Below, piece after piece: positions 4,618 through 59,550 of a stretch of DNA of 64,000 nt (positions are counted from its first letter, which is position 1; the number at the start of each line of letters is the position of its first letter). A model generated the notes under the pieces. That model was not told where the DNA came from. It saw nothing but the letters and a program-made list of their open reading frames with translations, and made no database searches. This DNA is from an uncultured Armatimonadota bacterium (GTDB lineage Bacteria > Armatimonadota > Fimbriimonadia > Fimbriimonadales > Fimbriimonadaceae), in contig CAIYLG010000002.1 in assembly GCA_903927025.1 (NCBI GenBank), positions 1-64,000 of the forward strand. The letters run 5' to 3'. Position numbers and translations under genes: made by a program.

Positions 4618-5176
4618 GGGTAGCCAGCCTCCTTTCAAGCGGATCGTTGGTTGCGACGATCAGGCAGCCACGCTGAGCCTGCTCGGATGTGATCTTGTCG
4701 ACCAGGTTGCGACCGGCTTCATCCAAGCCAGCTCCTGGCTCATCGAGCAAGAGCAGCTTCGGCTTCGCCTGGATTGCCATCGCCATACGGAGCCTTGCCT
4801 TCATCCCTGTCGACAGCTGCCCCGCGGGCACATCTTTGGCATAACCAAGCTCGATGAATTGCAGCAATTCGTCCACCCGAGCCGGGCAGCTTCTGAGATC
4901 CGCCGTGAGCTGAAGATGCTCTGCAACCGTGAGCTGGGCGTAAACAGATTGCTCCAGAGCGCTCAGCCCGAGTACATGACGCAGATCGCCTTCAGGAAAA
5001 GTGATCGTTCCTTCCGTTCGCTCCGTGAGCCCGGAAAGGGTCTTCAACAGAGTGGACTTACCCGACCCGTTGCGACCAAGGATCACGAGCCGGTCGCCAA
5101 GTCCGAGTTCGAAGGATAGTCCACGGAATATCCACCTGCCGCTATATTTCTTTCCCAGCCGGTCGACCTTCAGCAC
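4595..5176 (-). CDS. ccmA: Heme exporter ATP-binding subunit CcmA
   Basis: An ABC ATPase of about 193 aa, the normal length for CcmA. It shows the Walker A GRNGSGKST, the signature LSTGMKARLRMAMAI, the Walker B LLLLDEPGAGLDEAG and a switch region ending near VATNDP. It powers release of heme-loaded CcmE with CcmB, CcmC and CcmD. The start is set at GTG 5176 (reading MLKVDRLGKKYSG). The open frame continues upstream to 5257, but that extension has no family match and would overlap the divergent gene. It is the first gene of the ccm operon. Confidence 0.9.
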   Translation of the reverse strand: MLKVDRLGKKYSGRWIFRGLSFELGLGDRLVILGRNGSGKSTLLKTLSGLTERTEGTITFPEGDLRHVLGLSALEQSVYAQLTVAEHLQLTADLRSCPARVDELLQFIELGYAKDVPAGQLSTGMKARLRMAMAIQAKPKLLLLDEPGAGLDEAGRNLVDKITSEQAQRGCLIVATNDPLERRLATLELQLAD

Positions 5177-48295: not shown

Positions 48296-48371
48296 GGCCT
48301 CGTAGCTCAGGGGATAGAGCGCCTCCGTCCTAAGGAGGGCGTCATCGGTTCGAATCCGGTCGAGGTCGCCA
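48296..48371 (+). tRNA. tRNA-Arg (anticodon CCT)
   Basis: A complete 76-base cloverleaf with encoded CCA. The acceptor 5' strand GGCCTCG (48296-48302) pairs with CGAGGTC (48361-48367), with one G-U pair. The anticodon stem CCTCC/GGAGG encloses the loop GTCCTAA, giving anticodon CCT (AGG codons). The T loop is TTCGAAT. It marks the left edge of the cassette island: four partial copies of a tRNA-Arg 3' half lie downstream. In those copies the acceptor 3' strand is CGAGGCC, which would pair perfectly with this 5' strand. Confidence 0.96.
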
Positions 48372-48731
48372 CTTTTTGAACCTAAGATTGTCTTTTGGCA
48401 TTCGAGATTGCAAGTAATTTCGGTTGTTCTTGGGCAGATATTGGGCTCCCTCCTGCGAACGGAGGGAGCCGGGGTCGAGCACCATCGGGACCAGCAATTC
48501 ATACGATGCCGTTTCCATTCGATGGAAACGGGACTCCTCGCGGCTCCGAAATAATAGTTCCATAGGCAAACGCTTAATTAGGCATCATGTTCAAGCCATG
48601 GTGTCAGCCCGGCTCAATCCCGGTGACAACTGGCAAACATTTAAATAAGATGTTCATGGCCAGAACGGATGGCCGCGAGCATCGATAACTTGCAAGGACA
48701 GAGTTTGGTTAAGGCCGTGGCGAACGCACGT
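48372..48731. other. Left end of the island: non-coding, with inverted attachment arm and hairpin
   Basis: No convincing gene. Four bases after the tRNA CCA, TTTGAACCTAA (48375-48385) is the reverse complement of the TTAGGTTCAAA found before the tRNA-half copies at 49700 and 51200. TTGGGCAGATATTGGGC at 48430-48446 resembles other words of the same arm. A 10-bp perfect hairpin (GGCTCCCTCC, 48444-48453, with 48461-48470) follows. I read this as the inner arm of an attachment site. Confidence 0.55.
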
Positions 48732-48737
48732 TATAAT
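48732..48737 (+). promoter_or_regulatory. -10 box of the first toxin-antitoxin operon
   Basis: A consensus TATAAT lies 20 bases before the GTG start of the antitoxin gene, with GAGAGG as a ribosome-binding site 8 bases before it. The -35 region is weak. Confidence 0.55.
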
Positions 48738-48756
48738 AGTTAGAGAGGCCAAAGCC

Positions 48757-49068
48757 GTGAGAATCAGTCTTAACATTCAGGATCAGAACCTAACACCCGA
48801 GGGAAGGGAGATTCTCATTGGCCTGCTCCACCGCCTGGAAAGGGAGCCAGAGAAGTTCACTGCGGAGAATAGTCTCGTTTCTTCTCTCCCTGAGCCGGAG
48901 GAAGTGATTGATGTGGCTGAATTCTTGCGCAAAGCTCGCGCCGAGCGAAAGCCATTGAAGCCGATCACTCCACAGGAATTCTTTGCGGCGATGCGCGAGA
49001 CAAAAGGCTTCGAAAGCAAGGAAGCCGCACACCAACATATTCAAGAACTCCGCGATGAGTGGGATTGA
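48757..49068 (+). CDS. Putative antitoxin of a PIN-domain toxin-antitoxin pair
   Basis: A 103-aa acidic, mostly helical protein starting at GTG (MRISLNIQDQNLTPEGREIL). The N-terminal ~20 residues form strand-turn-helix material and the C-terminal part (EFLRKARAERKPLKPITPQEFFAAM) could wrap the toxin. I do not recognise a DNA-binding family. The antitoxin call rests on size and on its stop overlapping the start of a PIN-domain gene. It is the first gene of cassette 1, with its own promoter. Confidence 0.65.
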   Translation: MRISLNIQDQNLTPEGREILIGLLHRLEREPEKFTAENSLVSSLPEPEEVIDVAEFLRKARAERKPLKPITPQEFFAAMRETKGFESKEAAHQHIQELRDEWD

Positions 49069-49508
49069 AGGTGTCCCCTTTACGAATCTATCTCGATGCC
49101 GATGGCTTGCTTGACCTAACCACACCGAGATCCCTGGCTGATGACGAGAACGAGCAGAAGATCAGCGATGCCTTGAAGGGCGGTCGGCTTATTTTCGTCA
49201 CGAGCGAGATCGCAGTGCTAGAGACGCTTGTCCATGCCCGCCGGAATGAATATGAGAGAAGACAATCGAGTATCAGGCGCTTCCTCACCCCATCGACTCT
49301 TATCGAAACCAGGCCGGTCAATCTGGAATTGATCGAAGACGCCCTCACCCTTCGTGTCCAGTTCGGACTGAAATCGCCCGACGCCATTCACGTGGCGACC
49401 GGCATTTCCTCCAACTGCAGCGCCTTTCTGACCAAGGACGAAAAGTGGGGCAAACTCGGTCTATCGATTCTCACCGCCAATGACCTGGTTGCTTTGCTGA
49501 AGGATTAG
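49065..49508 (+). CDS. PIN-domain ribonuclease (VapC-like toxin)
   Basis: About 147 aa from TTG 49065 (TTGA overlap with the antitoxin stop); GTG 49059 and GTG 49071 are alternatives. PIN acidic residues are the Asp in RIYLDADGLLDL, the Glu in SEIAVLETLVHAR, the Asp in SPDAIHVATG and the Asp in FLTKDEKW. VapC toxins cut tRNA or rRNA when not held by the antitoxin. The same gene order and TTGA overlap recur in cassette 2 with a different, non-identical pair. It ends about 190 bases before the first tRNA-half copy. Confidence 0.85.
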   Translation: MKVSPLRIYLDADGLLDLTTPRSLADDENEQKISDALKGGRLIFVTSEIAVLETLVHARRNEYERRQSSIRRFLTPSTLIETRPVNLELIEDALTLRVQFGLKSPDAIHVATGISSNCSAFLTKDEKWGKLGLSILTANDLVALLKD

Positions 49509-49600
49509 CGGTCCTCGTCGAACGAGCCGCCGATATCGTTCTCCTCCAAACAAAAAGGCTGGGCCACGATCAAAAGTAGGGACCCAATCGGTCAAGATCT

Positions 49601-49680
49601 GCCCAAACTTTGGGCAGACACACCGATATTAGGCAGCCCTTAGTTACATCCAAATATCTCAATTTAGGTTCAAACTGGCC
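49601..49680 (+). repeat. Attachment-arm repeat before tRNA-half copy 1
   Basis: These 80 bases align without gaps to 51101-51180 with about 61 identities. Both segments lie exactly 100 bases before the TCCGTCC of the following tRNA-half copy. Conserved words are GCCCAAA, GGCAGACACA and ATTTAGGTTCAAA. The GCCCAAA-c-TTTGGGC start is a perfect palindrome here. This fits integrase arm-binding sites. Confidence 0.65.
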
Positions 49681-49699
49681 TTCCTTGACTCGCTTGAAG

Positions 49700-49748
49700 C
49701 TCCGTCCTAAGGAGGGCGCCGGGGGTTCGAGTCCCTCCGAGGCCGCCA
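49700..49748 (+). repeat. tRNA-Arg 3'-half copy 1 (attachment-site remnant)
   Basis: 49 bases running from the anticodon stem (CTCCGTCCTAAGG) through the T arm (GGGGGTTCGAGTCCCTC) to the acceptor strand and CCA. There is no 5' half before it, so it cannot be a tRNA. It separates cassette 1 from cassette 2 and truncates the primase gene on the minus strand. Confidence 0.88.
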
Positions 49749-50262
49749 AACGTTTGGAGAGCAAAGCGTCTTCTTGCCAGGCCGGTCCGTCGAAATCGCA
49801 GGCTAGGAAAACGCAAGTGTCGTCCTCTCGGATGGCATAGGTCTCCAGGACAACCTGGCCACTTAGATGGGCCCTAGCCGCCTCTTTGTCGAGTGCTGGG
49901 AATGCTTGGTTGGGGCATTCCGAGCACTTGACACGTCCATTTGGCGGCTTGCCGCAAATACCTTTGATCCACTCATTTTCGCAAGTCGGCGAGTCTCCGC
50001 TCGTTCCCTTCGCGCGGTTCTCCCAGAGCTTCGGATAGACCGATTCTCGACAGCGAAACATCTGAAGGATAAGTTCGATCTGCGAGTCGATGGTGGTTAG
50101 CGGCTGCCTGGCATTTTCGTGAGCTGGCGACTGGAGGAGAGCCAATTCATGTTCGAGCTCACGCTTCCGTGCCGCAAGGCGAGATAGTTCAGACTCGATT
50201 TCTTCCATGCGGTCGCGGTTCAACGAGTTTATGCTGGTAGGTATCCACTTGGGGTCGGACAT
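49749..50262 (-). pseudogene. Truncated TOTE conflict-system primase (AEP superfamily)
   Basis: About 170 residues remain of a much larger protein. The N-terminus is a coiled coil (IESELSRLAARKRELEHELALLQ). It is followed by the family start region FRCRESVYPKLWENRAKGTSG, then CENEWIKGICGKP and CSECPNQAFPALDKEA, and the first primase strand CVFLACDFDGPAWQED with its catalytic-region Asp residues. Homology stops exactly where the tRNA-half copy begins at 49748; the frame then reads through the tRNA remnant. The rest of the primase and the helicase/nuclease parts expected downstream are absent. A decayed defence gene. Confidence 0.75.
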
Positions 50263-50327
50263 CCGTGAACTGGATAACTGTGATCCGTTCGCTGGATGAG
50301 TTTTCGTTGTAAAATAGGTCAACGCCA

Positions 50328-50579
50328 GTGCAAGCACTTAGAATTGACGCGAACGTTGCCTCCGATCATACGGTGACCATCAAGTTGCCGTCAGACGTTC
50401 CCGTGGGTCCGGCAGAAGTCATTCTTCTCTACAGGGAGTCAACACCAAGGATCGAAACCAGCGGAAACGGTCCGGCGATCTTGAGCGCACTGTCACACAG
50501 TCCGCACCCGTTGGATGGTTTTTGGAAAGGGGCTAGCGACGAAGTCCAAGAGGCGCGGGATGGTTGGGATGCATATTGA
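50328..50579 (+). CDS. VapB-like antitoxin
   Basis: 83 aa from GTG 50328. The N-terminal strand pattern HTVTIKLPSDVPVGPAEVILL is typical of short antitoxins accompanying PIN toxins. The C-terminal part (LDGFWKGASDEVQEARDGWDAY) is an acidic helix likely to bind the toxin. The stop overlaps the toxin start (TTGA). It is divergent from the truncated primase, and a TAAAAT -10-like box lies about 15 bases upstream. Confidence 0.8.
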   Translation: MQALRIDANVASDHTVTIKLPSDVPVGPAEVILLYRESTPRIETSGNGPAILSALSHSPHPLDGFWKGASDEVQEARDGWDAY

Positions 50580-50965
50580 AGGCCTACCTTGATTCATCGG
50601 CCGTTCTAGATTTGCTGGATCCTGGAAGCCTCCGCCATGAACAGGCAAAGAGGACGTTGGAGATCGAACCTCGAACATGGTGCGTAAGCGATTTAGTGCG
50701 CTTGGAGTGCCTGATCCGTCCGATTAGAGCAAAGAACAGAGAAGCGGAAACGGAAGTCCGGGAAGTCTTGGGAAAGATGGAGTGCCTTTCAATTACGTCT
50801 TCGGCTTATGACGGCGCTGCAAACTTAAGAGCCGAGTTTGGCTTGAGAACGCCTGATGCGATCCATTTAGCAACTGCTCTCACCAGCGAGTGTGTAGAGT
50901 TTTGGACTAACGACGAAAAGTTGTTGAGAGTTTCGGCGGGAATAGTATTTCGGACGTTCGCTTAA
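50576..50965 (+). CDS. vapC: PIN-domain toxin VapC
   Basis: About 129 aa starting at TTG 50576 (MKAYLDSSAVLDLLDPG). The PIN catalytic set is visible: the first Asp in YLDSSA, the Glu in LVRLECLIRP, the Asp in TPDAIHLATAL and the Asp in FWTNDEKLL. It is predicted to be an RNA endonuclease neutralised by the overlapping antitoxin. The two PIN proteins of cassettes 1 and 2 share only family motifs, so they are not recent duplicates. Confidence 0.9.
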   Translation: MKAYLDSSAVLDLLDPGSLRHEQAKRTLEIEPRTWCVSDLVRLECLIRPIRAKNREAETEVREVLGKMECLSITSSAYDGAANLRAEFGLRTPDAIHLATALTSECVEFWTNDEKLLRVSAGIVFRTFA

Positions 50966-51100
50966 GACCGGAGCATGTCGACTGGCAACATTTTCGTCAA
51001 CTCCTGACACTGCCCACGTCCGAATGGATTGCCAATTCGAAGCGATCAGTTTTAAACTCCCACTCGCATGGCATCAGTGAAACGGACCTGCCTCGTTTTC

Positions 51101-51180
51101 GCCCAAAGTTTAGGCAGACACATCGATGTTGGGCGGCACTTGGTGGCATTCATACGGGTCGATTTAGGTTCAAATTGGCT
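51101..51180 (+). repeat. Attachment-arm repeat before tRNA-half copy 2
   Basis: The partner of 49601-49680, in the same orientation and at the same distance from the tRNA-half. The palindrome is slightly decayed (GCCCAAA-g-TTTAGGC). The 135 bases between the PIN toxin stop and this arm contain nothing I recognise. Confidence 0.65.
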
Positions 51181-51199
51181 CGAGACAACTCACACTCTC

Positions 51200-51248
51200 C
51201 TCCGTCCTAAGGAGGGCGCCGGGGGTTCGAGTCCCTCCGAGGCCGCCA
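51200..51248 (+). repeat. tRNA-Arg 3'-half copy 2
   Basis: Identical over 49 bases to copy 1, and extending one base further into the anticodon stem (CCTCCGTCC, as in the intact tRNA). It marks the boundary between cassettes 2 and 3. Confidence 0.88.
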
Positions 51249-51803
51249 TTTTTTCTATTGCGGCGTTTATTCAGCGCGAAAGGTTTTCTTTCCGGGCACA
51301 TTGCCACTCCGTGGCTAGGTTGACGTATCCCGGCATCCAATGTTTCACGCTTCAACTATTCGGTCGAAATTAGGGTTTCGTTTTTGAAGTAGTGAGTTGC
51401 CCCCTGGGGGTCTCGCTGGGGCAAGACGTGGACTTTTGATTTCCCTTTGGTTTACCGGGGTATCTCTACGGCTCTACCCCGGGCTAATGCACGTGACTCC
51501 TCCATAGTCCTCTAGTGCGGCGGGTAGCGGCGGGTTCGAGAGCGCGTTGGTCTAGCCTGATTGAAACTTGGCGGCTTACACACTGGGCAGCAAGGCAAAA
51601 TCATCCTCACTGACCAGTTCCGCCCGTGGGTTGTTTTTGAGAGTCACCCGATTCCGCGTTCCGGCCACACTCCGCCGTACACATTTTTCACTATGGACAG
51701 TTTTTCCCGACTCGTTCCCGATACCCCTCCCGATAAATCCTCGCTCGTCGAATGAGAATTCCAAACGCATCCCCAAGATAATTTTTCTCGTAATGTGAAT
51801 GTC
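51249..51803. other. Non-coding left part of cassette 3
   Basis: About 555 bases with no convincing gene. A small inverted repeat TTGCCCC / GGGGCAA occurs around 51396-51420. The stretch becomes AT-richer towards the membrane-protein gene. Short open frames here overlap each other and lack start signals. Confidence 0.5.
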
Positions 51804-52766
51804 ATGGCGCAATCTTCGCTGACTCCGCTGAAAACTCAGCTTTCTGAACTTATTGGTGACATCTTTCCTGATAAATTCGTACCAACGCTCGCGAATCTAT
51901 CGTCTGTCGCGGCTCTCGCGTCTATCTTGACGTATGTGGTCAACTACACGGAATCTCAAAAGTTAGTCGTTGCTCGGTTCGCATTTGTCGTCGTTTTATT
52001 GGCTACCTTAGGGAATTTATTGATCCGGTTTCTGAGAAAAAAACACACATGGCTATTTACAGCTTGCAAATTCATATCCCATCTGTGGCTTGTCCCAGTT
52101 TCTATTTACATCGCCGTTTGTGTACCTCATCGACTCGACGCCGTACCAACCGGAATACTGGACCTTCTCCAGGCTGAGAGTCAATGTGCAATCAATAATT
52201 GCAAACTTGACACCATCTACACCCCAAACGCTTCTTTCTCCGTGGCTGGTAATCATGAAATCAATCTTTTCAATAATTTCAAACTAGATAGTTTGTCAGA
52301 AAATGATATACCCGTGCTTAAGAAGTTAGGCTTTTCATATTTAACAGGGAAAAACTTCCGTGATCATAGGGATGAAACTCGACGCCGTATCGAAGGATGG
52401 CGCGATGGAGCTACAGTCCAGGGAATACCCTCAATAAAATTGCTGCGGAATGACTTGCGCAAAATGTGGGAAGAGCAGGAAGCCCCAGGCTACACATACC
52501 CAAAACACATCATACAATACGAATCAACTCCAGATCGTCAGCGATCTATCGCGATTGCGACCTCTATCCCGACTGCCAGGATTCCCGAGTTGATACCTGT
52601 GAACCGCTACGTTGTATTTGAATTCGAAAGTCACCTTGCCGCGAGTACTATTTGGCCTTGGCGTATAGCCAAACAGAGCGGTGGCCTCACGGAGGCGGAA
52701 GCAGAAAGAGCATATGCGTCATTAAAAGAGAAAGGTCAGCAATGGGAAACCGTATCCTCTCGTTAG
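51804..52766 (+). CDS. Orphan membrane protein of the island (possible effector)
   Basis: About 320 aa (ATG 51804; GTG 51795 possible). Three hydrophobic segments occupy residues about 30-50, 58-80 and 88-115. A cytosolic or extracytosolic domain of ~200 residues follows, with ENDIPVLKKLGFSYLTGKNF, charged KLLRNDLRKMWEEQE and a C-terminal helix rich in Glu and Lys. No family is recognised. The base composition is AT-richer than the core genome. In a defence-type island, an N-terminal TM cluster plus soluble domain could be a membrane-acting effector, but this is only inference. Confidence 0.6.
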   Translation: MAQSSLTPLKTQLSELIGDIFPDKFVPTLANLSSVAALASILTYVVNYTESQKLVVARFAFVVVLLATLGNLLIRFLRKKHTWLFTACKFISHLWLVPVSIYIAVCVPHRLDAVPTGILDLLQAESQCAINNCKLDTIYTPNASFSVAGNHEINLFNNFKLDSLSENDIPVLKKLGFSYLTGKNFRDHRDETRRRIEGWRDGATVQGIPSIKLLRNDLRKMWEEQEAPGYTYPKHIIQYESTPDRQRSIAIATSIPTARIPELIPVNRYVVFEFESHLAASTIWPWRIAKQSGGLTEAEAERAYASLKEKGQQWETVSSR

Positions 52767-52946
52767 TCTGTAGGACGATCGCTTTTGTGGTGCATCAAGC
52801 ATCTTTATTGGATGGGCAGGTTCAGGATTTTCACTACTTATCGAAGTCCCGATTCTAAATTCGTCGGAGTGCTATTTTCTTCGTAGAACTTTGGGTTGAA
52901 GCGAGTTGATGCAACCTAGTAATGTTTGGGCGTGTAGGATTAAACA

Positions 52947-54125
52947 ATGCTCAAGTTTCAATTATTGATCTCGACAAACCTCGTGTTCTTTGCCATTTCA
53001 AATTGTTTCTCACAGTCGTTAACAAAGGTGATTGCGAGGAATGATGCTGTTCTGGATGGGTGCTTTCGGAGTGACGGCGGAATATCCGAAAGCCCAGAAC
53101 CGACATCTGAAGTTGTTCCCTATTTCGCCAATTTCATAGCAGTAAGATGGGCTATGAGAGGTAAGGAGGCTGACCTCGATAGAGTCTCGAAGTATTTGAC
53201 ATGGTGCCAAAAACATCAAAATGGAGATGGCACGATCGATTGTTATGGTTATGCACAAGGTCCTCCGACACGCCTGTGCGATGCGGACGACTCGGAACTG
53301 GCAGGCTTCATCTGGGTGGCTGACACCTTTGTGAGTCACAAGGGCAAGTTGACTGAGAAACAGATAGCAGCATTGCAAAAAGCATTTGACCACCTTCAGC
53401 ATCTAATGCGGCCCTCTGGGTTGACTTGGGGAAGAGATCGAGAGCAAAACTTCATGCCCTCAGTGAAAGGTCCAGACGGACGGCCTTACAACAAGCGATC
53501 AACTCTCTCGTATCTTCAAGATAATTTGGAGGCTTACGCAGGTTTCGCCTCTGCGCAGCACCTCTTTACTACGCTTGGAGACACAAAGCGAAAATCAATT
53601 GCTGAATCATCAAGGCTAACGGTTGGACACGCGTTGCAGAACATGTGGGTTCCAGAGAAAAAACTTTACAGCCCGGGTTTCGCAAACGGAGTCCGCTTCC
53701 CCGCCTACACGGTAGATATGCCGGAATATCCAGGCCATGAAAAAGACTTTCTGGCTCTATGTTGTTTGGTTAATCTAAGGGCTATTACATGGTTAGACAG
53801 CTCGCCGGTTGAAGTCAAGCATCCTGGACACCCGTGGGTCTATTGCACTTCGAAATTCATTCCGGATGGCGGGAATTTTTGTGCCTGCCCTACTGAGTAC
53901 TTCTACATGGCAAGTCTGCGGGTCGGCAAACCAGACGAGATTGCGAAATGGAAGCACAAGACAATTGCCGAATCAGATGGATTCGGGAGTGACACCTACG
54001 GATATCGCCCAGCGATATGCAATTTGGCGCTGCTTTATGGAACGAATTGGATCCCAAATTGGATAGACGATCAACAAGCAAATCATGCGCCCAAAGGTGT
54101 CACGTCGCAATCTAATTTGCGCTGA
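52947..54125 (+). CDS. Secreted alpha/alpha-toroid-like protein
   Basis: A 392-aa protein with a signal peptide (LVFFAISNCFSQS). The mature part is helical, with paired helices and motifs common in six-hairpin glycosidase-like folds: TWCQKHQNGDGTIDCYG, CDADDSELAGFIWVAD, NLEAYAGFASAQHLF and EYFYMASL. Asp residues in DADDSE are candidates for catalysis. I cannot name a family. Unlike its island neighbours it looks like an exported enzyme rather than a defence protein. Composition is AT-rich, in line with recent transfer. Confidence 0.6.
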   Translation: MLKFQLLISTNLVFFAISNCFSQSLTKVIARNDAVLDGCFRSDGGISESPEPTSEVVPYFANFIAVRWAMRGKEADLDRVSKYLTWCQKHQNGDGTIDCYGYAQGPPTRLCDADDSELAGFIWVADTFVSHKGKLTEKQIAALQKAFDHLQHLMRPSGLTWGRDREQNFMPSVKGPDGRPYNKRSTLSYLQDNLEAYAGFASAQHLFTTLGDTKRKSIAESSRLTVGHALQNMWVPEKKLYSPGFANGVRFPAYTVDMPEYPGHEKDFLALCCLVNLRAITWLDSSPVEVKHPGHPWVYCTSKFIPDGGNFCACPTEYFYMASLRVGKPDEIAKWKHKTIAESDGFGSDTYGYRPAICNLALLYGTNWIPNWIDDQQANHAPKGVTSQSNLR

Positions 54126-54491
54126 GCTTTTCCAACTAGATCGCGTTGTTCTCGCCAGCCCTCGCGGTCCCTAGATTCAATGGGGGCCCGGCCTTCCAGG
54201 GCGACGCCAAGAGGCTCGCAAGCATTTTCAGCACATAATTTTCAACGTGAAACGTTGCTTGAACATTTGAGGAAACAGACACACATGCCCCCTCTTATGT
54301 GAGGCTTGATCGGGGAAATGCTTTTCTGCCGTAGGCTGAAATCGTCCTTTACTCCTCAGAATCGGTTGTATTGACAGGTAAGGTAATCGGTCGTTTGGAA
54401 TACCGGCTCGGTCTCTCTTAGCCTCTGGATTTTGGGAGACAAATTGAGACGCCTGTAGACTCAGATTTGGGATTTTTCAACCTATTTTTCT
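54126..54491. other. Non-coding right part of cassette 3
   Basis: About 366 bases without a gene. The last ~70 bases (TTTTGGGAGACA, AGATTTGGG) loosely recall the arm words before copies 1 and 2, but spacing to the tRNA-half differs. The similarity is weak. Confidence 0.4.
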
Positions 54492-54539
54492 TCCGTCCTA
54501 AGGAGGGCGCCGGGGGTTCGAGTCCCTCCGAGGCCGCCA
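54492..54539 (+). repeat. tRNA-Arg 3'-half copy 3
   Basis: 48 bases from TCCGTCCTAAGG to the encoded CCA, identical to copies 1 and 2 in that span. The base before it differs, which helps place the recombination crossover in the anticodon stem-loop. Boundary between cassettes 3 and 4. Confidence 0.88.
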
Positions 54540-54688
54540 GGTTTATGGGCATACACCTATACATATCCTCCAGATCGCGGAAGCCTTTTGGCAATCCTGT
54601 TGTTTTTGCGCTGGTTGAAAGCATTTTTTCGAGCCAAACTAGCACACGAAAAGCCTTTTGGGGACTCTTAGCCAGAGCGCATGGAACC

Positions 54689-55438
54689 CTAACGTTGCTC
54701 CAGATTCAGCTCAACCACAAGCAGAGAGTGATCAGATAGACCGTGGCTCCGGACATCGTGATCAAAATGCGCCGACGCGAGGCAAGGCGAAAGTGGTGGG
54801 GACAAGAAACAGTGATCCAAGCGGAAGCCGTTCTTCTTTTGTCGACTCAACCACGAGTACTCTCGGGTTTTTTCATTGCATCGACGCCAGCAATCGACCC
54901 AACCCAGATCCAATAGCATCTGGAAACAGTGCTCTAGGTAGAAAGGGGTACCTTCGGTGTCCTCACTCAACCCCGTGTTGAAATCTCCAAGAATTGCTAC
55001 CCGGCTTCCGGAATGTTCCGCTGCAAACAGCAAGAGGTGGTGCCAAAAATCATCCTTATCCCAATGCTCCCCTTGATTCGGAACATGTACGCCTAGTACC
55101 TGTAAGCCAAGAGTCGGAAAAATTGCTGGTAGCCAGCGATGACTGCTCTTTGGAGTCGCACCCTGGTCGGTCAGAACTTGGAACCTGTGCGGACTACTGA
55201 AAAGAAGGCCATTTTGTTTTGGCGGCGGAAGTGAATCCTGTAGAACGATGGTTTCATCGACGGCCAATGCCTCACGAAGCTTGATTCCTGGAACAGACCT
55301 GTATTCAGAGATCAAAAGGCAGTCGGGAGCCAGCGTGCGCAGTCGATCTGCAATCTGGGGGATTCTTTTGCCTCCTCCACTTTGAATGTTCCAAGTCGCA
55401 AGAGAGATGTTCTGAGACTCATGGGAGGTCAGCTTCAT
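54689..55438 (-). CDS. Endonuclease/exonuclease/phosphatase (EEP) family protein
   Basis: A 249-aa soluble hydrolase. EEP motifs are present in order: LATWNIQSGGG (Asn), CLLISEYRSV (metal-binding Glu), VHVPNQG, VAILGDFNTGLSE (catalytic Asp and Asn), FRLDHCFLS (Asp-His) and GLSDHSLLVVEL (final Asp-His pair). The family includes exonuclease III-like nucleases and phospholipid or inositol phosphatases. There is no signal peptide, so a cytosolic nuclease acting on DNA or RNA is plausible. Single minus-strand gene at the left of cassette 4. Confidence 0.85.
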   Translation of the reverse strand: MKLTSHESQNISLATWNIQSGGGKRIPQIADRLRTLAPDCLLISEYRSVPGIKLREALAVDETIVLQDSLPPPKQNGLLFSSPHRFQVLTDQGATPKSSHRWLPAIFPTLGLQVLGVHVPNQGEHWDKDDFWHHLLLFAAEHSGSRVAILGDFNTGLSEDTEGTPFYLEHCFQMLLDLGWVDCWRRCNEKTREYSWLSRQKKNGFRLDHCFLSPPLSPCLASAHFDHDVRSHGLSDHSLLVVELNLEQR

Positions 55439-55499
55439 CTAGCCAGTATGGGAGGTGGTGTACCACATGGGTTGAATCCAAATCCTGCCATGCTGATTC

Positions 55500-55838
55500 A
55501 TGTGGATCTTTTCGGAAAAGGGCATGATCAGTGCAGTCGCCCACCGGGACAAGCCTGGCGTAACGCTGGTGAGGGCAAGGCGTAGGGAGCACTTGGCGGC
55601 CTTCCTCGCCTCTTGTGGTCCGTGGACTGGAAGCGAGATCTGCCAGATGCCTTCGGCAGACTACGAATACCGGATAGAGCTTTCTTCCGAGACGTTTTCT
55701 CTGCTTCTCGCTGCGCAGGCCATGGCGATCGACTATCCGAACTTCAAGGGCAAGTGTGATGCTCTACCGGATAAGGATTACGCACACGCACTTCACAAGG
55801 TCTGGGCTGTGATTCATACCGCGGTGGCACGCAATTGA
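55500..55838 (+). CDS. Small conserved hypothetical protein of mobile islands
   Basis: 112 aa beginning MWIFSEKGMISAVAHR. Its pattern (start MW-F---G--S, then VRAR-R-HL, DYEYRIELS, IDYPNFKGK and HALHKVWAVIH) matches a widespread uncharacterised family often annotated as hypothetical in bacteria and on phages or islands. It is a soluble alpha/beta protein without an enzymatic motif. It starts about 60 bases from the divergent EEP gene, so the two may share a control region. Confidence 0.7.
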   Translation: MWIFSEKGMISAVAHRDKPGVTLVRARRREHLAAFLASCGPWTGSEICQMPSADYEYRIELSSETFSLLLAAQAMAIDYPNFKGKCDALPDKDYAHALHKVWAVIHTAVARN

Positions 55839-56148
55839 AAGACCTTGGAGTCCACCAGAGATGACAATGCGGCACTCGGAGCAAGCCACCGCGATTTCCA
55901 CGCTGCTATCCAAAGCCCACCTGGCACCGAGCAGTGATGGGGGAGCTTACGATCGAGGTCAGGCTGACCTGTCCCCTTTCGAAAAGGCTCAATCTCTGAT
56001 AGGTTCTTGGCGAAGTCGCGGCAGGCAGGGTCTTTACCGCCAACTACTTTGCTGCCCCTCTCGGCTGCTGTTGCACTCCGGTTGCCACTTCTGTTGAAGC
56101 GATCAATTTTTAGCCTCTCAAAAATCTTAGGCTGTCTGGTACTCACAT
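55839..56148. other. Gap without recognised gene
   Basis: About 310 bases between the small conserved protein and the next minus-strand gene. Overlapping open frames occur on both strands but none has a family match, a good start or convincing composition. Confidence 0.5.
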
Positions 56149-57216
56149 CTAACACATATGGCTTGGGAGCTTGCCAGGCAATGGGCCGTATCCAATTGCT
56201 TGCTGGCCAAATGAATGCCATTGGTGAATCACATCACAGGGACCGTTAGGCGGCAGTTCCTTTCCGAGCAAACAGACGCAAAGAGTCGTTAATGCTAGCT
56301 CAGCTCCTTCCTTGGCACTTTCAAAAGTGACCGATTCGGGACATTGGCTCACCTTTATGCCTTTGATGCGATACCCCTCTGGACTGTCTTCAATTCTCAT
56401 GGTGAATGCCTCAAAGCCTGTCCAGCTGCGGTGGAAATGGAGTACTGGCTCCTCGAAAAACAGAAACCATTTATCCTCCATCTGGTTAGGGATTAGCCCT
56501 AATCGAACCACATTCATCGCTTCTGAAGATAAGCGGATATCCAAAGAAAACTCTGCGAACGCAGGGCCCATAGGCTCATTGATCCAATCGCTTCTTATAA
56601 CCGGCATGCGGTTTTCTAAGGAGACACAGTAAGCCTCGTTTACTGTAAGCACCTGTGCAATTTTGTCATTTGCCATCGGCACCAATTCGCGGAGCCTCTC
56701 CATTGCCCTTGCAACGCCACCTGCGACGAAATGGCTCGCAAACCATCCTCCATCGTTGTTGTCCGGAAATCTCGAAAAGCGTGTCGTTGCTCGGAGGTAA
56801 GTAAGGACTCCCCAAATATTCGCTTTCTGCATAGAGTGGATGGATTCGAAGTCTGCAAGAGATTGCGTCAGAAAAGACTTCGACCATTCGATGCTGGCAG
56901 TGCGTCGCTTCTCGTCAATTTCCTCAAACAGGTTCTCAAGCGCATCCAGGAACGTCGTAGCCTCAGGTCCGTATCCCCAATCCGCTCCTGACTCCGAGGA
57001 CTGAGCACTTTGTAGCTCAGTGCTCTCGATTTGTAATGCGGTCCACGCGGATTCAATCTGGCTCAGTAAATTTTGCTCCCACGGAGTCCAATTGGGAATT
57101 TCCTGAAATCGATGTGATGGATTGGATTCATGCGGCATAGATGAGTTACCGTAGGGAGAGTAGCTGGCTAGTACGATTCGGATTCCGCCATTTAGCATTA
57201 GGAGACCTACTGTCAC
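56149..57216 (-). CDS. Uncharacterised protein with C-terminal hydrolase-associated-like domain
   Basis: Up to 355 aa (GTG 57216; ATG 57198 and ATG 57138 are possible later starts). The first ~230 residues are helical and acidic with no known motif. The C-terminal part contains DKWFLFFEEPVLHFHRSWTG and FEAFTMRIEDSPEGYRI. That resembles a small domain seen next to ADP-ribosylglycohydrolase- or macrodomain-type proteins; the similarity is from memory and weak. It is a single gene between the EEP/small-protein pair and AbiE. Role unknown. Confidence 0.55.
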   Translation of the reverse strand: MTVGLLMLNGGIRIVLASYSPYGNSSMPHESNPSHRFQEIPNWTPWEQNLLSQIESAWTALQIESTELQSAQSSESGADWGYGPEATTFLDALENLFEEIDEKRRTASIEWSKSFLTQSLADFESIHSMQKANIWGVLTYLRATTRFSRFPDNNDGGWFASHFVAGGVARAMERLRELVPMANDKIAQVLTVNEAYCVSLENRMPVIRSDWINEPMGPAFAEFSLDIRLSSEAMNVVRLGLIPNQMEDKWFLFFEEPVLHFHRSWTGFEAFTMRIEDSPEGYRIKGIKVSQCPESVTFESAKEGAELALTTLCVCLLGKELPPNGPCDVIHQWHSFGQQAIGYGPLPGKLPSHMC

Positions 57217-57501
57217 CCCTTCTCAAGAATATATTAGACGGGTGGGGAGCCACACACTTTTCTTATGTGGCCGGTAGCTGAGATCGAATCTGTGCAATAT
57301 AATCGTCCGGAGCAGATCCATCGGTCTTTAGCAAGGACACATTTGAAACGGTCGGCTTGTTTGACGTCTTGCAAGAAATCGGTCAGGATCTTGCTGAGGG
57401 CCGGGCGAGAGATTCCATCATGTTTTCCCAGGATGTCATCCACCTGACCCTTTTCGGTAGCTGCTTCCAGCTTGCCACAAGTTACTTTGGCAGGCCTAGT
57501 C

Positions 57502-57622
57502 TTGCGGTTTATCAATCTTCGGCCTTTGCGGCGTTTATCGCCGCAGAATTTCAGTTTGATAAACCAACCTGGACCCGAAGGTTTACAAATCGCACGAATT
57601 GCGGCGTTTTTCGCCGCAATTC
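57502..57622 (+). promoter_or_regulatory. Putative AbiEi operator: repeated TTGCGG palindromes
   Basis: Three related words precede the AbiE operon: a half-site TTGCGGTTTAT at 57502; a palindrome TGCGGCG-tttat-CGCCGCA at 57527-57545; and an 11-bp perfect palindrome GAATTGCGGCG-ttttt-CGCCGCAATTC at 57596-57622, 17 bases before the start codon. AbiEi antitoxins are known to repress their own promoter through inverted repeats, so these are good operator candidates. The remaining gap (57217-57501) shows nothing else. Confidence 0.6.
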
Positions 57623-57639
57623 AACGGTATAAGTAAACC

Positions 57640-58449
57640 ATGAGACAAGCCCATCAACAGCCAGGAGCCCTCTTGCCGCCCGGCCTCGTTGCCGCCAAGT
57701 CGTGGCTGATGGGCAAGGGCGTTCAACGCCATACCGTCGATAACTGGCTAAAGAGCGGTCAGATCGTCGCTGTGACACGTGGCGTGTTCAAGAGGCCAGA
57801 GGCTGAGCTAACCTGGAAGGGCGTCGCCTGCTCCCTGCAACGTATGGGAGCCGATCTGACTCCAGGCGGACTCACCGCCCTCGAACTGCAAGGGTTCAAC
57901 CACTACCTTTCAATGGGACCGCAGTCGGTCGTTCATCTGTACGGACGTTCCCATCTGCCAGGGTGGGTCAATCACCTTCTGCCCGAGACCAGCTTCGAAC
58001 GTCATAGGCCCTTAGAATTCGACTCACGTGAGGACGACTCCGGATTCGAGAATTCGCGGTGGCGCGCTCAGGTTATGCCTTTCGGCAATGAAAAATGTTC
58101 TCTGAACATTTCGTCGCCTGAACTCGCTATGCTTGAGTTGCTGATGGACGTTCCCATCTCAGTCTCATTCGAGCACGCCGACAACTTGCTTCAAGGACTG
58201 CCCAATCTGTCCCCGCAAAAGCTCACCCATATCCTTGAGCACTGCAAGAACGTCAAGGTGAAGCGCCTGTTCCTTTGGCTTGCCGAGCGCAACCAAAGCC
58301 CCTGGCTCAAGAGGCTCGATCTTCACAGGTTCAGCTTAGAAGGTGGCACCCTTGGATCGGGCAAGCGCGTCATCGCCAGGGGCGGCAAACTCGACCGCAA
58401 ATATCTTGTAACCGTTCCACCAGAGATGGCGGTTGAACCCAATGGATAG
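57640..58449 (+). CDS. AbiEi-family type IV antitoxin
   Basis: A 269-aa protein. An N-terminal winged helix-turn-helix (VAAKSWLMGKGVQRHTVDNWLKSGQIVAVTRGVFKRP) is followed by the AbiEi domain, with GGLTALELQGFNHYL and ISSPELAMLELLMDVP. AbiEi controls transcription and counteracts the AbiEii nucleotidyltransferase in this phage-defence toxin-antitoxin system. Its stop overlaps the start of the AbiEii gene (ATGGATAG). Three candidate operator palindromes lie just upstream. Confidence 0.9.
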   Translation: MRQAHQQPGALLPPGLVAAKSWLMGKGVQRHTVDNWLKSGQIVAVTRGVFKRPEAELTWKGVACSLQRMGADLTPGGLTALELQGFNHYLSMGPQSVVHLYGRSHLPGWVNHLLPETSFERHRPLEFDSREDDSGFENSRWRAQVMPFGNEKCSLNISSPELAMLELLMDVPISVSFEHADNLLQGLPNLSPQKLTHILEHCKNVKVKRLFLWLAERNQSPWLKRLDLHRFSLEGGTLGSGKRVIARGGKLDRKYLVTVPPEMAVEPNG

Positions 58450-59167
58450 CAGCGGCCCATACTACCGGCAGGTGCAGCTTCTCATCCGGCTGTTACCGAT
58501 CATAGGTCGCGAGACGTGCTTTGCCCTGAAGGGTGGCACGGCTCTCAACTTGTTCGTGCGAGACATGCCGCGCCTATCCGTTGACATCGACCTGGTCTAT
58601 CTCCCAGTCGAAGATCGAGATACAACCCTTGCCAATGTGCAGGCTGCCTTGCAGCGGATTGATGACGCGATCGGCACAGAAATTCCCGGAAGCAAGGTGA
58701 CTTGGACTAAAGCCAAGGACTCGTTGCGCCTATTTGTCGAGGCGAATGGCGTCAACGTCAAGATTGAGTTGTCTCCAGTTCTGCGCGGCAGCGTTCACGA
58801 ACCGGTTACCCTCACTGTCAGGCCAGCTGTCGAAGAGGAATTCGGTTACGCCGAGGTACCTGTCTTGGCGTTGCCCGACCTCTACGCCGGCAAGATTTGC
58901 GCTGCGCTGGATCGTCAGCACCCGCGCGACCTTTTCGACATCAAGCTCCTTCTCGAAAACGAAGGGCTCACAGACGACATTCGCCGTACATTCCTGGTCT
59001 ATCTCATCAGCCATAACCGTCAAATGGCGGAACTCTTGGCTCCTAACCGCAAAGATATCCGTGCCATCTTCGTGTCCGAATTCCAATCAATGACGATGCA
59101 TCCGGTCATCGTCATTGATTGGAAGAGGCTCGCGAACAGCTTATTCGCCGGATTCACACAGACCTGA
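58442..59167 (+). CDS. AbiEii-family nucleotidyltransferase toxin (frameshifted, N-terminal part)
   Basis: About 241 aa from ATG 58442. The nucleotidyltransferase active site is FALKGGTALNLFVRDMPRLSVDIDLVY, with GG, the two Asp of DIDL and a further Asp/Lys set in LPDLYAGKICAALDRQHPRDLFDIKLL. The toxin pyridylates or nucleotidylates a cellular target, probably tRNA. After residue ~225 the frame loses homology (IVIDWKRLANSLF) and stops, while the expected C-terminus continues in another frame at 59119-59352. The break coincides with an 18-bp perfect inverted repeat. Confidence 0.88.
   Translation: MDSSGPYYRQVQLLIRLLPIIGRETCFALKGGTALNLFVRDMPRLSVDIDLVYLPVEDRDTTLANVQAALQRIDDAIGTEIPGSKVTWTKAKDSLRLFVEANGVNVKIELSPVLRGSVHEPVTLTVRPAVEEEFGYAEVPVLALPDLYAGKICAALDRQHPRDLFDIKLLLENEGLTDDIRRTFLVYLISHNRQMAELLAPNRKDIRAIFVSEFQSMTMHPVIVIDWKRLANSLFAGFTQT
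59081..59124. repeat. 18-bp perfect inverted repeat at the AbiEii frameshift
   Basis: Arms 59081-59098 (TTCCAATCAATGACGATG) and 59107-59124 are exact reverse complements around an 8-base loop. It lies inside coding sequence, at the point where the AbiEii frame must shift by -1 to join its C-terminal part. It may be the scar of a hairpin-templated mutation or a structure that stimulates frameshifting. Confidence 0.85.
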
Positions 59168-59352
59168 CCGACGAAGAGAGGCGGTTCCTGTTGTCGTTCA
59201 AATCCAAAGCGCCCGAGTGGGAGTTGCTCGGATTTACGGATACAGATAAGCTGCCTGCCGTCCGATGGAAGATGATAAACTTGGAGAAGATGCCGCAAGA
59301 GCGGCATGCAGCAGCGCTGGGGGCGCTACGCAAAGCGATAGGCATGGATTAG
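59119..59352 (+). pseudogene. Out-of-frame C-terminal part of AbiEii
   Basis: 77 codons that read LEEAREQLIRRIHTDLTDEE, then FLLSFKSKAPEWELLGF and LPAVRWKMINLEKM. This is the characteristic C-terminus of AbiEii-family proteins and overlaps the N-terminal part by 49 bases in the -1 frame. A TGA immediately precedes the TTG at 59119. Reinitiation, a -1 ribosomal slip near TGG-AAG, or simple gene decay could each explain the arrangement. Confidence 0.75.
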
Positions 59353-59505
59353 AGCGGTAGATCACGGAACGGGATGACCCCTCCATCGATGTTAGTCTAG
59401 TGGTAGCCTGTAGGAGTTCTTCGTAGCTCATTACTTCAATTCAGTACAGTTACGTCTACTAAATTGGTTCTAATTTTGTAGACGCATGCACTTCATGACG
59501 CCCTT
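59353..59505. other. Right end of cassette 4
   Basis: Non-coding. A 7-bp inverted repeat CGTCTAC (59453-59459) / GTAGACG (59478-59484) ends 22 bases before the tRNA-half copy, roughly where the TTAGGTTCAAA arm lies at copies 1 and 2. Its sequence is different, so this element may use different arm sites. Confidence 0.4.
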
Positions 59506-59550
59506 CGTCCTAAGGAGGGCGCCGGGGGTCGAGTCCCTCCGAGGCCGCCA
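59506..59550 (+). repeat. tRNA-Arg 3'-half copy 4 (right border of the island)
   Basis: 45 bases from CGTCCTAAGG to CCA. It matches copies 1-3 except for a one-base deletion in the T arm (GGGGGTCGAG instead of GGGGGTTCGAG), and its left identity ends two bases later. The last copy; core-genome genes follow. Nothing is seen between it and the asparagine synthase gene (59551-59661). Confidence 0.87.

Follow-up and report, generated by a model that had tools for sequence, protein, structure and literature searches.

Elements that integrate at a tRNA gene carry the 3′ half of the tRNA in their attachment site (attP); on integration this half joins the chromosomal 5′ half, and the resident half goes to the far end of the insert (PMC4383910). 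The tRNA-targeted islands described by Islander have a regenerated tRNA gene and a displaced 3′ fragment in direct orientation, occur in tandem arrays and include anticodon-centred crossover among their recognised subsites, and each island must contain an integrase (PMC4383910). Rebuilt tRNA genes inherit mismatches between attP and attB (PMC3293823), as in the mycobacteriophage Boilgate, where five differences occur in tRNA-Lys (PMC10865867). Accretion is known from the ssrA islands and cis-mobilizable elements of Dehalococcoides, in which tandem islands at one RNA gene each end in a copy of the 3′ end of that gene, and 15 islands have no integration module (PMC3146451, PMC5704250).

The window, a 64,000-nucleotide stretch of DNA from an uncultured member of the Fimbriimonadaceae (Armatimonadota; genome G000), has features of all of these. 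It shares with Islander arrays the rebuilt tRNA gene, the displaced 3′ fragments in direct orientation, the tandem layout and the anticodon-centred crossover, but none of its four cassettes contains an integrase. As in the inherited mismatches, a non-identical 3′ half replaces the old one and still allows a tRNA fold; here, however, there are nine differences and three re-paired T-stem pairs, and the displaced native halves are preserved downstream. Like the Dehalococcoides islands, the cassettes lie in tandem at one RNA gene and each ends in a copy of its 3′ end; the former rely on a serine-family recombinase at tmRNA, whereas the autonomous islands apparently related to those in the window use a tyrosine integrase for tRNA-Arg(CCU). 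Accretion, mismatch inheritance, islands in tandem at an RNA gene and members that lack an integrase are all known already, and the window is a clear and unusually divergent example of them. A possible step beyond what is known, suggested by sequence comparison, is that 3′-half alleles and cassettes circulate between genera.

An intact tRNA gene and four displaced 3′ halves

ARAGORN calls a single tRNA gene in the window, tRNA-Arg(CCU) at 48296–48371. The 16-mer of its anticodon arm, CGTCCTAAGGAGGGCG, occurs five times on the plus strand (0.03 expected from dinucleotide shuffles). The displaced copies, including the shared anticodon arm, lie at 49700–49748, 51199–51248, 54492–54539 and 59502–59550, all 3′ of the intact gene and in the same orientation, the layout of a tRNA-integrated island array. 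No further displaced copy beyond the fourth was found in the genome. Between the tRNA copies are four cassettes, U1 to U4, of 1.3, 1.45, 3.2 and 5.0 kb:

48296–48371, plus strand: intact tRNA-Arg(CCU), chimeric (native 5′ half and variant 3′ half), attL of the array, from ARAGORN, the Rfam tRNA score and comparison with relatives
48327–48371, plus strand: variant 3′ half (tRNA positions 32–76), TCATCGG-TTCGAAT-CCGGT and CGAGGTC, with 9 differences from the native half
48372–49703, plus strand: cassette U1, flanked by the intact tRNA and displaced half 1; last insertion by position, probable carrier of the variant half, without an integrase
48757–49508, plus strand: U1 cargo, a small protein (possible antitoxin, no family match) and a PIN-domain protein (PF01850, E = 2e-10), forming a toxin–antitoxin-like pair
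49601–49703, plus strand: U1 right attachment arm, of the class with the GCCCAAA-TTTGGGC palindrome and TAGGTTCAA, 77% identical to the end of U2
49570–50337, minus strand: AEP-TOTE-like open reading frame or fragment (PF22548), overlapping U2 and the displaced half at 49700
49704–49748, plus strand: displaced native-type 3′ half 1, the resident until the last insertion, identical to the native half of congeners
49749–51203, plus strand: cassette U2, a small protein and a PIN protein (PF01850) at 50328–50965, the second toxin–antitoxin-like pair of the array
51204–51248, plus strand: displaced native-type 3′ half 2
51249–54494, plus strand: cassette U3, two proteins (51795–52766 and 52947–54125) with no Pfam match
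54409–54494, plus strand: U3 right attachment arm with GGTCTCTC at 54410, common to cassettes of other genera with unrelated cargo
54495–54539, plus strand: displaced native-type 3′ half 3
54540–59506, plus strand: cassette U4, an endonuclease/exonuclease/phosphatase protein and an AbiEi/AbiEii pair (57640–59167)
59507–59550, plus strand: displaced 3′ half 4, the distal end of the array; its position makes it the original half, and its T loop is 1 nt short

A sequence-only reading of this DNA had proposed that the displaced halves fit the 5′ half of the intact gene better than its own 3′ half does, and the base pairing bears this out: all four displaced halves carry CGAGGCC, which forms 7/7 Watson–Crick pairs with the 5′ acceptor strand GGCCTCG, whereas the intact gene's own CGAGGTC forms six Watson–Crick pairs and one G–U pair. 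The difference in the T arm that it reported is equally real (GGGGG-TTCGAGT-CCCTC in the displaced halves versus ATCGG-TTCGAAT-CCGGT in the intact gene). Intact and displaced halves differ at nine positions, all within the last 45 bases of the gene (tRNA positions 47, 49, 50, 51, 59, 63, 64, 65 and 71). Six of the nine make up the three outer T-stem pairs (49–65, 50–64 and 51–63), in which both sides have changed and pairing is kept; the variant therefore resembles a working tRNA half of another lineage and not a decayed copy. The partial copies are not quite as uniform as that reading had them: the anticodon arm is the same in all five copies, but in the most distal one (59502) the T loop is short of one T (GGGGG-TCGAGT).

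The Rfam tRNA model gives the intact gene 53.5 bits, versus 57.3 bits for the native form, and a cloverleaf fold was obtained for the chimera; from this score and fold we infer that the chimeric tRNA is functional. We set aside tRNA-dependent lysogeny, in which no functional tRNA is rebuilt, because the rebuilt gene is called as a tRNA and is predicted to fold as one. An integron cassette array would have an integron integrase beside it; none lies near this array, whose repeated ends are tRNA halves. The acceptor G–U pair alone was not accepted as proof of a swap: genus g47 has a G–U pair in its intact gene and in most displaced copies. A single acceptor G–U pair is not diagnostic, because G013, of the same genus, and G022, of the same family, each have one, yet the 19-kb loci examined in them contain no displaced half.

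Native form and source of the variant half

Comparison with relatives identifies the native form as the one that the sequence-only reading had predicted from the partial copies. The tRNA-Arg(CCU) genes of G004, G012 and G014 match, at 76/76 bases, a composite of the window's 5′ half and its displaced 3′ half, and over positions 1–46 they have zero differences from the window gene. Among the 18 genomes of the genus that have an intact tRNA-Arg(CCU) in the assembly, including G000, the T arm is GGGGG/CCCTC in 16, and the variant occurs in G000 and G017 only. The RpoB tree unites G000 with three genomes that all have native-type T arms, G004, G012 and G019 (100/100), and G017 falls just outside this four-species clade (90/92). 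Because its closest RpoB relatives and its congeners are native-type, the variant in G000 is most simply explained as derived. No conserved flanking synteny around tRNA-Arg(CCU) was found in relatives within 20-kb loci, distal flank included, and a strict empty site is therefore not seen.

We consider it probable that four integrase-less cassettes were stacked at tRNA-Arg(CCU) by site-specific recombination and that U1 was the one that brought in the foreign variant half. Each cassette would have entered the gene in turn by recombination in the anticodon loop, the 3′ half of the incoming element joining the chromosomal 5′ half and the resident half being pushed to the far side of the insert. 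Three older insertions would have left native-type halves; the half on U1 (48372–49703), the last to enter, most probably came from another tRNA-Arg(CCU) lineage. The expected product is a chimeric working tRNA whose T arm is foreign yet well paired and whose acceptor stem has one G–U pair, and the integrase may have been supplied in trans or since lost. Direct observation supplies the array with its differing halves, the native gene of relatives, a uniform point of crossover and, elsewhere, a family of integrases linked to tRNA-Arg(CCU); the role of U1 follows from the geometry of the array: if U1 is the last insertion, the half at 49700 the prior resident and the half at 59502 the original, then U1 would have brought the variant. 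The earlier proposal of a last insertion with a variant half and a crossover in the anticodon stem-loop thus gains support from the native form in relatives. Its further statement that the original half was displaced downstream holds as to displacement; strictly, the original is the copy at 59502, while that at 49700 was part of the gene until the last insertion.

The native-type distal copy at 59502 speaks for import with U1, as does the finding of no second variant half in the genome. Neither a free U1 attP nor a variant-carrying relative of U1 was found. Two relatives also speak against it, as do the missing empty site and the class of the U1, U2 and U4 ends. The variant half of G017 differs from that of G000 by two bases, which form one base pair (49–65, A–U to G–C). 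An island-free relative with CGAGGTC as its native form was looked for: G017 has CGAGGTC, and no displaced half is seen in the 704 bp between the tRNA and the point at which its contig ends in repeats, so that G017 settles the matter neither way. In the sister G012, an attachment end on a different contig bears a variant-like half in decayed form (GTCATCGGTT...), and the variant was therefore perhaps present earlier in the lineage; it may have entered this part of the genus repeatedly, or once and then been displaced in some species.

Among one genome per species, the G017 record (an uncultured Armatimonadetes metagenome-assembled genome) is the sole match to the variant half, and none was found in viral contigs. 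The distant Armatimonadota genome G210 was rejected as a donor: its T arm is similar (TCAGCGG-TTCGAAT-CCGTT, acceptor CGAGGGC) and not exact. In G003, the only trace of the gene is a degenerate half with CGAGGTC (G003:C34:5980–6027); there is no intact tRNA-Arg(CCU) match in this assembly, which has eight matches to the Arg(CCU) integrase family.

The closeness of the G017 half, with only two bases different, and the shortness of the half, flanked by identical anticodon-arm sequence, would also suit an array that was native-type throughout and later, independently of U1, took up the variant from G017 or a similar relative through gene conversion or ordinary homologous recombination. We regard this as unlikely. 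The genome offers no internal donor tRNA for the variant T arm (the best other matches have 3 mismatches in 22 nt), and a recombination tract would have to stop at the CCA because the sequence on the U1 side has no similarity to that downstream of the tRNA in G017. Moreover, the swap has the position expected of integration, and other arrays repeatedly show smaller ones. It is also improbable, to much the same degree, that the variant is the old native form of the clade of G000, G017, G004, G012 and G019, and that the native-type halves came with the elements. The position of the variant-bearing G017 beside the four-species clade and the variant-like displaced half of G012 fit such a history, but the T arm is native-type in G004, G012, G019 and every deeper congener examined, the most distal half in G000 (the expected pre-array resident) is native-type, and the genome retains no displaced variant half. 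Drift by mutation in a single native half at its site, without import, would leave a valid tRNA half such as the variant still is. Yet drift is hardly credible when nine of 45 bases have changed, six of them in re-formed pairs, when the first 46 bases of the gene show zero changes and when four displaced, presumably unconstrained copies have stayed native.

Cassettes, attachment ends and integrases

The cassettes of the window keep attachment ends without integration genes, as non-autonomous elements do. No integrase was found in any of the four (no PF00589 match on the window's contig and no Arg(CCU)-integrase match in the window), so the integrase gene inside each island that marks Islander-type islands is absent from this array. 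A PADLOC scan added only AbiE to the annotation. The AEP-TOTE-like frame crosses the displaced half at 49700, and its C terminus is therefore partly encoded by the attachment site. Homologs of the U1 cargo (85–88% amino acid identity) occur in the sister G004 at about 120.3–121.1 kb of contig C160; in that genome the U1 gene pair and the U2 small protein have homologs that are joined together, some 27 kb downstream of tRNA-Arg(CCU).

In ten relatives, tyrosine integrases of a single clade start 113–115 bp downstream of the intact tRNA-Arg(CCU) (10/10); less closely related integrases of this family are located near tRNA-Val, tRNA-Leu or tRNA-Pro genes. The window's genome has four PF00589 genes, all on contigs other than that of the array. 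Its sole clear relative of the Arg(CCU) integrase matches over the N-terminal 176 amino acids alone and lies on contig C16 next to tRNA-Pro(GGG). At that locus (G000:C16:15000–26000), the tRNA-Pro(GGG) is at 4960–5036 and the integrase starts at 5139 (locus coordinates), with the same left-arm motifs; beyond 176 amino acids the frame runs on into unrelated sequence.

Integrase-side ends and cassette ends have motifs in common, TTGAACCTA / TAGGTTCAA and GGTCTCTC. In U1, the first pair is found at 48376 and 49665, respectively. The ends of U1 and U2 belong to a second class with the GCCCAAA-TTTGGGC palindrome, and related ends are present in G004 and G012. The right arm of U3, together with the adjoining half, is about 80–91% identical over 68–134 nt to ends in G021, G010, G024, G001 and G018. 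The right end of U3 also matches ends in the integrase-carrying genomes G021, G024, G101, G102 and G106, whereas U1, U2 and U4 have no clear match there; their ends appear to be of another class than those of known integrase-bearing islands. For islands with similar ends, inspection by eye of the G094 frames and part of the G007 frames found no tyrosine recombinase, and a PF00589 search near the G007 island gave no match. A cassette in G024 that has no full integrase match (contig C2, 4564–4617 of the locus) retains only the first 18 codons of the Arg(CCU) integrase beside its left arm, a remnant which suggests that non-autonomous cassettes may arise by internal deletion.

Crossover point and swaps across the family

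Displaced tRNA-Arg(CCU) 3′ halves, a few of them decayed or doubtful, occur in 33 of the 85 family genomes. A comparison with the intact gene of the same genome was possible for 48 copies, and in 36 of these the uninterrupted match to that gene begins precisely at position 32, where the anticodon loop starts. In the window itself the point of strand exchange is bounded only to about tRNA positions 29–46; the start at position 32 in most copies compared across the family places the crossover in the anticodon loop, a recognised tRNA subsite.

Smaller 3′-half replacements are visible at other arrays. The intact 3′ half of G075 is five positions off both of its own displaced halves and equals the distal displaced half of G024, which belongs to another genus. 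Intact and displaced halves differ at two positions in G105 and at one in G026, where the displaced half is the better paired; in G106 and G020, too, a displaced half pairs better than the intact one. A broader but tentative possibility is that the tRNA-Arg(CCU) 3′ half is a circulating allele in this family, and that small integrase-less cassettes, which a tRNA-specific tyrosine integrase would move in trans through common GGTCTCTC / TTGAACCTA arm sites, might stack in integron-like fashion, repeatedly rewrite half of a core tRNA gene and pass alleles between genera.

The array indicates that horizontal transfer can replace half a tRNA gene, with the displaced halves as a layered record of its former states. 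Since 85 genomes display the point of crossover, displaced copies and a target-specific integrase, the order of insertion is directly legible, as is the apparent passage of tRNA halves from one genus to another. A further caution is that a tRNA that serves as a lineage marker may be a chimera.

The opposite arrangement, with displaced 5′ halves (positions 1–40/41), is rarer and was seen at G064:C9:89480–89519, about 8.7 kb upstream of the intact gene, and at G108:C177:9217–9257. G080 has two full-length tRNA-Arg(CCU) genes 3.3 kb apart (C1:1493143 and 1496501), the second with a broken acceptor pair.
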